From NCBI GenBank assembly GCA_902800065.1, contig CADCDE010000002.1, positions 1-64,000 on the forward strand: a stretch of 64,000 bases of DNA, given 5' to 3'. This DNA comes from an uncultured Ruminococcus sp. Lineage in GTDB: Bacteria > Bacillota > Clostridia > Oscillospirales > Acutalibacteraceae. The translations under genes were made by a program, and so were the position numbers. How positions within the stretch are numbered: position 1 is the first letter of the stretch; each line of letters starts with the position of its first letter. Under the pieces are notes generated by a model. The model did not search any database, had not been told where the DNA came from, and worked only from the letters and a program-made list of their open reading frames with translations. Shown here one piece after another: positions 21,461 through 63,157 of this stretch.

Positions 21461-21489
21461 TTGACATACACATTTCGGTGTGGTATAAT
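21461..21489 (+). promoter_or_regulatory. Promoter of rplJ-rplL
   Basis: TTGACA (21461-21466), 17-nt spacer, TATAAT (21484-21489): full consensus, followed by the L10 leader. Confidence 0.85.
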
Positions 21490-21495
21490 CAATAA

Positions 21496-21631
21496 TGCTG
21501 TTGACTGTAGACAGCAGGTGCTGAAAAGCATAATGGGTAATTTTTCCAGCCTGCCGAGGTTGTGTGCGTTTGTATAATAATACTTGAATGTATTTCTACG
21601 CCTTCCTCGCAAAGTGGAGGGCGTATTTTTT
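21496..21631 (+). promoter_or_regulatory. L10 leader with attenuator
   Basis: The transcript between the promoter and rplJ carries the features of the Firmicutes L10(L12)4 leader: a GCTGTTGACTGTAGACAGC hairpin, a central GCTGAAAAGC element and CCAGCCTGCCGAGG. It ends with a terminator-like hairpin (ACGCC at 21598-21602 with GGCGT at 21620-21624, then TATTTTTT). In the known mechanism L10 binding favours the terminator. The assignment rests on position and on recalled sequence elements. Confidence 0.75.
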
Positions 21632-21653
21632 AAATATTCGGAGGTGAATCGTT

Positions 21654-60820: not shown

Positions 60821-60849
60821 TTGACAAAAAAGAGAATATATAGTATAAT
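60821..60849 (+). promoter_or_regulatory. Promoter of the ylxM-ffh unit
   Basis: TTGACA (60821-60826), 17-nt spacer, TATAAT (60844-60849): full consensus. Confidence 0.85.
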
Positions 60850-60905
60850 GTCACAGGTGTAAAGGAAAAATACTTTACAGTCGGCTGAAGGGCGGTTTGA
60901 GGGAT

Positions 60906-61268
60906 ATGTCAAAAAATCTTGAGATTTCAAAGCTGTTGGATTTTTATGGTATCCTCCTGACTGACAAACAGCGTGAAATTGCGGAATATTATTATAATGA
61001 CGATTTGTCGCTCGGAGAGATAGCCGAAAATCTCGATATATCCCGTCAGGGAGTGCGTGACAGCATAAAACGCAGTGAAACGGTACTTTTTGAGGCTGAG
61101 GAAAAATTATCTCTTATCGGAAAATCGGAGATACTTAAAAACAGTCTTGAAGCTATAAAAAGAAATATCACTGCAATAAGCGTGGAAAACGAGATGTATA
61201 ATAATTCAGCAATAAGTCACAGTACGGAAAAGATACTTAATGAGCTTGAAAAACTCAGTGAAATATAA
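60906..61268 (+). CDS. ylxM: YlxM, helix-turn-helix partner of the SRP genes
   Basis: 120 residues from ATG 60906 (GGGCGG upstream). MSKNLEISKLLDFYGILLTDKQREIAEYYYNDDLSLGEIAENLDISRQGVRDSIKRSETVLFEAEEKL is the YlxM/p13 sigma-4-like helix-turn-helix, which in other Firmicutes lies directly before ffh and modulates the SRP. Here 470 bases separate its stop from ffh, most of them in a structured, non-coding insert. Confidence 0.92.
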   Translation: MSKNLEISKLLDFYGILLTDKQREIAEYYYNDDLSLGEIAENLDISRQGVRDSIKRSETVLFEAEEKLSLIGKSEILKNSLEAIKRNITAISVENEMYNNSAISHSTEKILNELEKLSEI

Positions 61269-61317
61269 AAATTATGAATTATGCGTTGGGTAAGGGGCTT
61301 TTAACAGTCAAATCAAT

Positions 61318-61718
61318 CTTATAAAAACTTATAAAAGCATGTTGAATAAAGGAAGTGATAACAGTAAAAAAATATAAAATCCTTTGTAAAGTAAAGGTCG
61401 GCGCTTCAAGTAGCAGTTCATAAGACGTCGTCTGTCTGCCCAAAGAAGGCAGCTTAAACGGGGACTGCCGTCGTAATAAATTCAAAGCGATAACCAAGCA
61501 CAATTATTTATTTTGGCGAATCAGTAAAGAAAGGAAATGTTACTGACACGATATTCAGCCACAATGAAAGGTATTTATCGTGTGTACCCGCACGTTAGCG
61601 GGGAATTTACGCCTTCGGAGTGTCACGCCAACATTAGTAGATAATGACTGTCATATCGAAAGTGGACACGATGAACAAGGAATGAAACATAAAAGTTGTT
61701 TTTATAACTTTTTATAAG
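61318..61718 (+). ncRNA. Candidate structured RNA (or relic insertion) between ylxM and ffh
   Basis: No coding frame is convincing. Terminal arms 61318-61337 and 61699-61718 pair over 20 bp with one mismatch and one G-U. Inside, TTGGCG (61513-61518) pairs with CGCCAA (61626-61631) and encloses four hairpins: TCAGTAA/TTACTGA (61521-61546), ACACGATA/TATCGTGT (61546-61583), CCCGC/GCGGG with a 6-nt loop (61587-61602) and a UUCG-capped stem (61609-61623). Further hairpins lie at 61381-61397, 61436-61452 and 61632-61646. It looks like a large folded RNA. It is not the SRP RNA: the conserved SRP tetraloop region was not found. Strand is inferred from the operon. Confidence 0.5.
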
Positions 61719-61738
61719 TTTTCAGTAACGGTGTTAAG

Positions 61739-63157
61739 ATGGCATTTGAGGGCTTGTCGGAGAAACTGAGTGCGGCTTTCAAGAGACTGAGAAATAAAGG
61801 AAAGCTGACGGAAAGTGATGTAAAGGATGCAATGCGTGAGGTAAGGCTTGCACTTCTTGAAGCGGATGTCAATTACAAGGTCGCAAAGGATTTTACTAAT
61901 AAAGTAACAGAGCGAGCAGTAGGTGCGGATGTCATGGAAAGTCTGACACCTGCACAGATGGTTGTCAAGATAGTAAACGAGGAACTCACTGCATTGATGG
62001 GCTCTGAGGAAACAAGGATAAATTTTGCAAATAAACCGCCCACAGTTATAATGATGTGCGGCTTGCAGGGCTCTGGTAAGACTACCCACAGTGCAAAGCT
62101 GGGCAAAATGCTCAAAAGACAGGGACACAGACCATTGCTTACAGCCTGTGACGTTTACAGACCTGCGGCTATCGAACAGCTCAAGGTTGTCGGAGGACAG
62201 GCAGGAGTTGCTGTCTTTGAGATGGGACAGGAAAATCCCGTTACTATTGCCAAAGAAGCCGTAAAACACGCCAAGGATTACGGCAATGATATAGTTATAT
62301 TGGATACGGCAGGTCGTCTGCATATAGACGAAAAGCTGATGAATGAGCTGAAGGAAATAAAGTCTGCTGTAAATCCGGATGAAATACTCCTTGTAGTCGA
62401 CTCAATGACAGGTCAGGATGCAGTGAATGTTGCAAAGTCATTTGATGAGCTTCTCGATATAAGCGGTCTTATATTGACAAAGCTCGACGGTGATACAAGA
62501 GGCGGTGCGGCACTTTCGGCAAAGGCTGTAACGGGCAAGCCGATAAAATTTGCCGGTATCGGTGAAAAGCTTGATGACTTGGAGGTATTCCATCCCGACA
62601 GAATGGCATCGAGAATACTCGGAATGGGCGATATACTTACTCTCATTGAAGATGCTGAAAACCGTCTTGACCAGAAAAAAAGCGAGGAAATGGCACGCAA
62701 GTTCCAGCAGAATAAATTCGATATGAATGATCTGTATGAACAGCTTCAGCAGATAAAGAAAATGGGACCTATAAAAGGTATATTGTCCAAATTGCCGGGT
62801 ATAAGCGACCAGATAAAGGATATGGACTTTGATGACAGGCAGATGGACAGGATAGCTGCAATGATTTCGTCAATGACCAAAAAAGAACGTGAAAATCCTG
62901 ACATCATCAATCCGTCAAGAAAACGTCGTATAGCAGCCGGCAGTGGAATGAAGGTCGAGGATGTTAACCGTCTCATGAAGCAGTTTGGAGAAATGCAGAA
63001 GTTTATGAAAACTATGAATGCAAGAGGCAAGAACGGTAAAAGAAAACACATACCGGTGCTTCCCGGACTCGGCGGTGTAAATATGGGTACAGGTATGCCC
63101 ATCACCAATGCAAAACTTGAAAACAAGAACAAAAATAAAAAGAAAAAGAAAAAATAA
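61739..63157 (+). CDS. ffh: Signal recognition particle protein Ffh
   Basis: 472 residues. The N domain (FEGLSEKLSAAFKRLRNKGKLTESDVKDAMREVRLALLEADVNYKVAKDFTNKV) is followed by the G domain with GLQGSGKTTHSAKLGKML, DVYRPAAIEQLK, DTAGRLHIDEKLMNELKEI and TKLDGDTRGGAALS, and the methionine-rich M domain with KMGPIKGILSKLPG and RKRRIAAGSGMKVEDVNRLMKQFGEMQKFMK. It binds 4.5S-type SRP RNA and signal sequences. A weak GGTG is the only site before the ATG, 20 bases after the terminal repeat of the insert. Confidence 0.97.
   Translation: MAFEGLSEKLSAAFKRLRNKGKLTESDVKDAMREVRLALLEADVNYKVAKDFTNKVTERAVGADVMESLTPAQMVVKIVNEELTALMGSEETRINFANKPPTVIMMCGLQGSGKTTHSAKLGKMLKRQGHRPLLTACDVYRPAAIEQLKVVGGQAGVAVFEMGQENPVTIAKEAVKHAKDYGNDIVILDTAGRLHIDEKLMNELKEIKSAVNPDEILLVVDSMTGQDAVNVAKSFDELLDISGLILTKLDGDTRGGAALSAKAVTGKPIKFAGIGEKLDDLEVFHPDRMASRILGMGDILTLIEDAENRLDQKKSEEMARKFQQNKFDMNDLYEQLQQIKKMGPIKGILSKLPGISDQIKDMDFDDRQMDRIAAMISSMTKKERENPDIINPSRKRRIAAGSGMKVEDVNRLMKQFGEMQKFMKTMNARGKNGKRKHIPVLPGLGGVNMGTGMPITNAKLENKNKNKKKKKK

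Follow-up and report, generated by a model that had tools for sequence, protein, structure and literature searches.

A putative gene-less IS607-family element with a TnpB guide-RNA scaffold in the ffh ribosome-binding site of an uncultured Ruminococcus

The insert between ylxM and ffh in the 64,000-nucleotide stretch of uncultured Ruminococcus DNA analyzed here (the window) is, as far as its sequence tells, a non-autonomous IS607-family transposon without tnpA and tnpB that keeps both ends and a complete scaffold of a TnpB guide RNA (reRNA). Taken as a whole, it is very probable that a miniature IS607 element landed at the GG of the ffh Shine-Dalgarno (SD) sequence, was mobilized in trans and was then retained. 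This class of element is known; the apparently new part is the habit of its subfamily of landing in SD sequences, the TAM coinciding with the SD.

An insertion in the ribosome-binding site of ffh

The host genes and the parts of the element are located as follows.

60821-60849, + strand: putative sigma-70 type promoter of the ylxM-ffh operon, TTGACA-17-TATAAT (12/12 consensus match)
60897-61268, + strand: ylxM, upstream host gene (ORF; NF045758 YlxM, 92.5 bits)
61290-61297, + strand: left half of the split ffh SD, GTAAGGGG, TAM side of the insertion (from empty sites in 29 relatives and the left-flank consensus AGGA/GG in other copies)
61296-61731, + strand: non-autonomous IS607-family element, a 434-bp unit with a GG at both ends, of which one is the shared core (from copies in its own genome and the genus, and the empty site)
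61296-61345, + strand: left end, GGCTTTTAACAG..., homologous to the left ends of tnpB-bearing elements; the same ends flank IS607 tnpA and tnpB at two other loci (L232, L233)
61318-61337, + strand: left arm, AT-rich subterminal repeat, presumed TnpA-binding site (pairs with 61699-61718; present at the left ends compared)
61346-61582, + strand: lineage-specific middle of the miniature element
61699-61718, + strand: right arm, AT-rich subterminal repeat, presumed TnpA-binding site (pairs with 61318-61337; conserved in the right ends compared)
61739-63157, + strand: ffh, the gene with the split ribosome-binding site (ORF; TIGR00959, 617.5 bits)

The stop of ylxM is at 61268 and the ATG of ffh at 61739; NCBIfam models for YlxM and ffh confirm both genes. 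The original prediction called this gap abnormal and devoid of a reading frame, and suggested comparing it across relatives. Both statements hold: the two genes are nearly adjacent, the site thus being empty, in 29/29 genus relatives examined, and an ORF scan of the gap revealed no convincing gene. Most of the empty sites carry AAGGGGTG- or AAGGAGTG-like ribosome sites, and that of the sister species (G042) reads ...GAGCAAGGGGTGTTATAATGGCATTTGAGG. Comparison with the empty sites puts the insertion at a GG dinucleotide, without target duplication, which splits the ffh SD; the window copy spans from GG 61296-61297 to GG 61730-61731. The calculated pairing of the ffh SD with the 16S tail falls from -7.4 kcal/mol (empty) to -3.0 kcal/mol (occupied), and ffh is presumably still translated, either with the help of the weak AACGG that the right end of the element supplies or without a Shine-Dalgarno sequence.

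Insertion at GG, lack of a target duplication and ends shared with TnpA-encoding elements assign the insert to the IS607 family, and the lack of a tnpA ORF inside 61296-61731 makes it non-autonomous. The 20-nt arms described earlier do exist and appear in the minimum free energy (MFE) fold; by analogy with the IS607 literature (PMC4227781, PMC6188088), they are the presumed sites of TnpA binding. The 237-bp middle (61346-61582) has substantial matches only in its own genome and in the sister species, besides three short weak matches. Its beginning looks like the ribosome site and start codon of a tnpB; the remainder has no recognized origin. Elsewhere in the window, positions 21487-21638 hold an ordinary cis-regulatory RNA, the ribosomal protein L10 leader (RF00557).

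The putative guide RNA and its fold

The right-hand part of the element (61583-61731) is, by sequence homology, a TnpB guide-RNA scaffold of the RAGATH-18 type. Its features are the following.

61583-61731, + strand: reRNA scaffold, conserved part (83-98% identity to the right ends of other copies; 41-sequence alignment)
61587-61602, + strand: 5'-flank hairpin, CCCGC ACGUUA GCGGG (paired in 39-41 of 41 sequences, with several pair types per position)
61593-61597, + strand: CGUUA, loop half of a PK2-like pseudoknot (99% of cells paired with 61726-61730; A-U/G-C exchange at one pair)
61612-61682, + strand: RAGATH-18 RNA (RF03064), the reRNA core (66.6 bits against a gathering score of 44.9; full model, 1-71/71)
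61726-61730, + strand: UAACG, 3' half of the pseudoknot, bases now standing in for the ffh SD (pairing counts over 41 sequences; SD pairing calculation)
61732-61751, + strand: predicted 20-nt guide, TGTTAAGATGGCATTTGAGG, spanning the ffh start codon; its first base could be 61731 (by analogy with the ISFba1 reRNA, PMC11061315)

RAGATH-18 was identified as the core of the IS607-family TnpB guide RNA by Ren et al. 2024 (PMC11061315). We aligned 41 reRNA sequences from Ruminococcus, Clostridium, Enterococcus, Bacillus and others, and counted pairs by script after shifting one gap in the hairpin. Pairing between the loop CGUU(A/G) and the terminal (U/C)AACG is present in 99% of cells, and most pairs of the RAGATH-18 helices covary. 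In the window copy, the conserved hairpin, pseudoknot and RAGATH-18 pairs are intact except for one basal pair that most relatives also lack. In the published structure (PMC11061315), the equivalent of this pairing between hairpin loop and scaffold 3' end is PK2; the window copy has it. A second Rfam match in the interval, BtsR1, scores 15.5 bits against 66 and was set aside as a chance hit.

The original prediction saw no match to RNase P, tmRNA, SRP RNA, T-box or group I/II core sequences here, suggested an Rfam search and named such a match among the outcomes that would speak against it; that search returned RF03064. The expectation of a large structured RNA is borne out insofar as the element carries a conserved structured RNA, although one of a known class, and the alternative suggestion of an insertion relic becomes, in modified form, a non-autonomous IS607 transposon. 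The fold drawn at first fares worse. It consisted of a nested domain in which a closing helix, 61513-61518 with 61626-61631, enclosed four hairpins. The six-base complementarity exists but is not generally conserved: among the siblings, the copy on contig C31 keeps it (UUGGCA with UGCCAA), while that on C6 mispairs (UUGGCA against CGCCAA). Moreover, the helix crosses conserved RAGATH-18 pairs (61612-61624 with 61665-61680), the region is absent from autonomous relatives, and the supposed CUUCGG cap is no loop, being the 5' strand of the RAGATH-18 basal helix. A covariation check, also proposed at that time, finds covarying pairs in the hairpin, the pseudoknot and RAGATH-18 over the 41 sequences, but the conserved fold is mostly not the one proposed. 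As for complementarity beyond chance, the whole element does fold better than shuffled sequences, but only moderately (z -2.19, 3/100 shuffles), and the reRNA part no better than shuffles (z -1.11); folding energy is for this reason weak evidence here.

The window copy resembles the ISFba1 reRNA (PMC11061315) in its RAGATH-18 core, 5'-flank hairpin, loop-end pseudoknot, right end next to the guide, G-rich TAM side and the homologous TnpB encoded by its siblings. In contrast to ISFba1, it has no adjacent tnpB and would represent an orphan guide RNA of the trans type, carried by an element without genes.

Copies and autonomous relatives

A search with the interval found further copies in the same genome on contigs C6, C31, C47, C55, C5, C128, C59 and C148, which have in common a left end GGCTTTTAACAGTTAAA... 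and a right end ...TTATAAGTTTTCAGTAACGG. In two loci from uncultured Ruminococcus (L232 and L233), the same ends bound a 2014-bp unit with a gene for IS607 TnpA (NF033518, 219 bits) followed by tnpB. Shorter relatives of the same family, about 1.4-1.5 kb, have tnpB as their only gene. The window copy and its gene-less siblings measure 276-434 bp, have lost both genes, and differ from one another by large, distinct internal deletions. One complete family TnpB (P0001, 388 aa) was matched along almost its full length to the solved chain 8iaz_A (2.1e-74). We take this chain, whose entry is titled only 'Transposase', to be the structure of ISFba1 TnpB.

In locus L227 (G000:C128:1-3830), the right end of a tnpB-bearing element lies in the ribosome site of an IS607 tnpA that is itself interrupted, with matches at 382-756 and 2322-2501. 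Two loci of the same genome, L023 (G000:C125) and L024 (G000:C20), hold a second type of RAGATH-18 element, whose right end differs (..TTTTGAGTAGCAGT) and likewise precedes likely start codons by only a few bases.

Non-autonomous IS200/IS605 elements are a familiar case of transposon ends that enclose no genes but carry a TnpB guide RNA with the potential to act in trans. Those are of the single-stranded type, whereas the window element is of the IS607 type, which relies on a serine recombinase. With other IS607 serine transposase elements, it shares the IS607 TnpA found in its same-ended relatives. Helicobacter IS607 and its relatives (PMC6188088) likewise have a GG core, no target duplication and AT-rich end repeats; unlike Helicobacter IS607, the window copy is missing both tnpA and tnpB.

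Landing in Shine-Dalgarno sequences

Across the genus, a start codon lies 3-14 nt after the GG of the right end in 74 of the 92 distinct right ends fetched, with a peak at 7-9 nt. Start codons were counted when they opened a frame of at least 60 codons, or of at least 40 where the frame ran off the fetched sequence. In the same DNA, a start codon is found 3-14 nt after 12.5% of any GG, 14.8% of GGGG and 34.8% (88/253) of AGGAGG motifs; the difference between right ends and AGGAGG motifs is highly significant (Fisher p 4e-14). A wider test, built on loci with related TnpBs in other, mostly Firmicute genomes, placed 38 of 54 right ends 3-14 nt upstream of a start codon; an order-wide Rfam search with stricter filters yielded only a few genomes. 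From these positions, the RAGATH-18 IS607 subfamily sits for the most part in SD sequences. As SD insertions exceed the expectation from the target motif, we propose the term 'Shine-Dalgarno inserter' for this target-site class.

Left flanks of the copies mostly read AGGA/GG, like the measured TAM AGGAG. Over the 20 sites with both flanks, the mean calculated SD pairing with the 16S tail weakens from -9.2 kcal/mol (empty) to -3.7 kcal/mol (occupied). Among the captured genes are bacA/uppP, an ABC permease, a sigma factor, ruvA, nusB, a parA-like gene and dprA. Helicobacter IS607 targets (G)GG without further preference (PMC6188088), whereas the insertions of this subfamily mostly lie at AGGAGG in ribosome-binding sites. 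Among distant IStron-like elements with right ends CGTAGCGG or CGTATCGG, 2 of about 14 stand at start codons; some of the 16 pattern matches lack a terminal GG and were excluded by visual inspection. These IStron-like right ends occur at loci L292, L294, L296-L298, L300-L304, L306, L308 and L309, RAGATH-18 elements rarely found at start codons.

Target choice by TnpA, retention that depends on the TAM or selection against insertions elsewhere may account for the SD placement. The copy on contig C47 (276 bp), which has no RAGATH-18 core, also sits at an SD; this hints at target choice by TnpA, although the copy may have lost its RNA later. SD placement is not discussed in the main text of PMC11061315, and we found no description of such a habit for TnpB/IS607 elements in the parts of the open-licence literature consulted. 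AGGAG, the published TAM, doubles as an SD sequence, so natural guides would address gene starts.

Proposed mechanism and alternatives

We propose that a related IS607 TnpA serine recombinase moves the element in trans across the GG core. The element would be transcribed with the ylxM-ffh operon from the ylxM promoter. We assign transcription to this promoter because the promoter-like left-end sequence of tnpB-bearing copies is not kept in the window copy; 60821-60849 is thus the likely source of the reRNA transcript as well, and no terminator-like site was seen between it and ffh. TnpB supplied by sibling elements would bind the window reRNA, and about 20 nt downstream of the right end, from 61731 or 61732, would serve as a guide over the ffh start region. 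The complex may cut the empty ffh allele beside the G-rich TAM and so favor retention of the element, as proposed for other TnpB elements. The measured TAMs are AGGAG or GAGGG, and ISFba1 TnpB no longer cut after single changes to the TAM (PMC11061315). The TAM side at ffh, AAGGGG (AAGGG or AGGGG), matches neither exactly.

A more far-reaching version, to which we give only a small chance, holds that RAGATH-18 IS607 elements are specialized to home into ribosome-binding sites. Folding of the reRNA or binding of TnpB would compete with translation of the captured gene, because the UAACGG end of the scaffold is also the ribosome-binding region and is sequestered by the pseudoknot. If this were true, ffh would be under the control of a transposon guide RNA, a possible first step to domesticated RNA-guided regulators.

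The most serious alternative, less probable than retention of a working element yet well worth considering, is a decayed relic: a dead IS607 derivative that has ceased to make or use its guide RNA and whose insertion is simply tolerated. No genes remain in the window element, the left-end promoter of tnpB-bearing copies is not kept and the ffh TAM is not canonical. In addition, tnpB copies of the family in the draft genome break at contig ends and the sole IS607 tnpA above the family cut-off is interrupted, so that present mobility and TnpB supply are uncertain. Against decay, the window copy has kept every conserved reRNA pair, the pseudoknot and both ends, and near-identical copies at several sites of the same genome, with one in the sister species, point to recent mobility.

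The pairing of the two arms, which recur in all copies, could also be read as a discontinuous ribosome-binding site, in which folding brings the left SD half near the ffh start and preserves translation. We consider this improbable: the arms are explained as IS607 end repeats and would leave about 20 unpaired nt on each side. Pairing of the outermost left and right ends, which would complete the split site, was rejected as it is broken in copies.

Still less credible is a miniature IStron, that is, a self-splicing intron joined to IS607 ends, whose removal from the mRNA would restore the ffh SD. Group B IStrons, which combine IS607 with a group I intron (Tourasse 2014, PMC4227781), share IS607 ends, a GG target and a related TnpB with the window element, and excision would restore the ffh site exactly; they are mostly intragenic (58%). 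No intron was detected here. The lack of any group I/II match in the interval at E up to 10 counts for little, as Rfam intron models also found no match at the ten IStron-like loci scanned and their sensitivity for this intron class appears low. Stronger objections come from the large, differing internal deletions among the 276-434 bp copies, and from tnpB-only relatives having only about 100 nt ahead of tnpB, too little for a group I core. Equally implausible is a dedicated, riboswitch-like cis-regulator of SRP synthesis, as suggested in the original prediction: the element does lie in the ffh leader and alters its ribosome-binding region, but elsewhere it stands in front of unrelated genes, and none of the examined relatives has an insertion at the ffh site.

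Conclusions

Orphan RAGATH-18 RNAs ahead of housekeeping genes can now be explained as gene-less IS607 elements whose guide RNAs could work in trans. In this subfamily, the landing site, the TAM published for TnpB and the Shine-Dalgarno sequence are almost one and the same, and natural guides would therefore address the beginnings of host genes, which brings insertion, guide-RNA maturation and the initiation of translation together at a single place. How an essential gene survives loss of its Shine-Dalgarno sequence, and whether a TnpB guide RNA affects host translation, thereby become directly testable.
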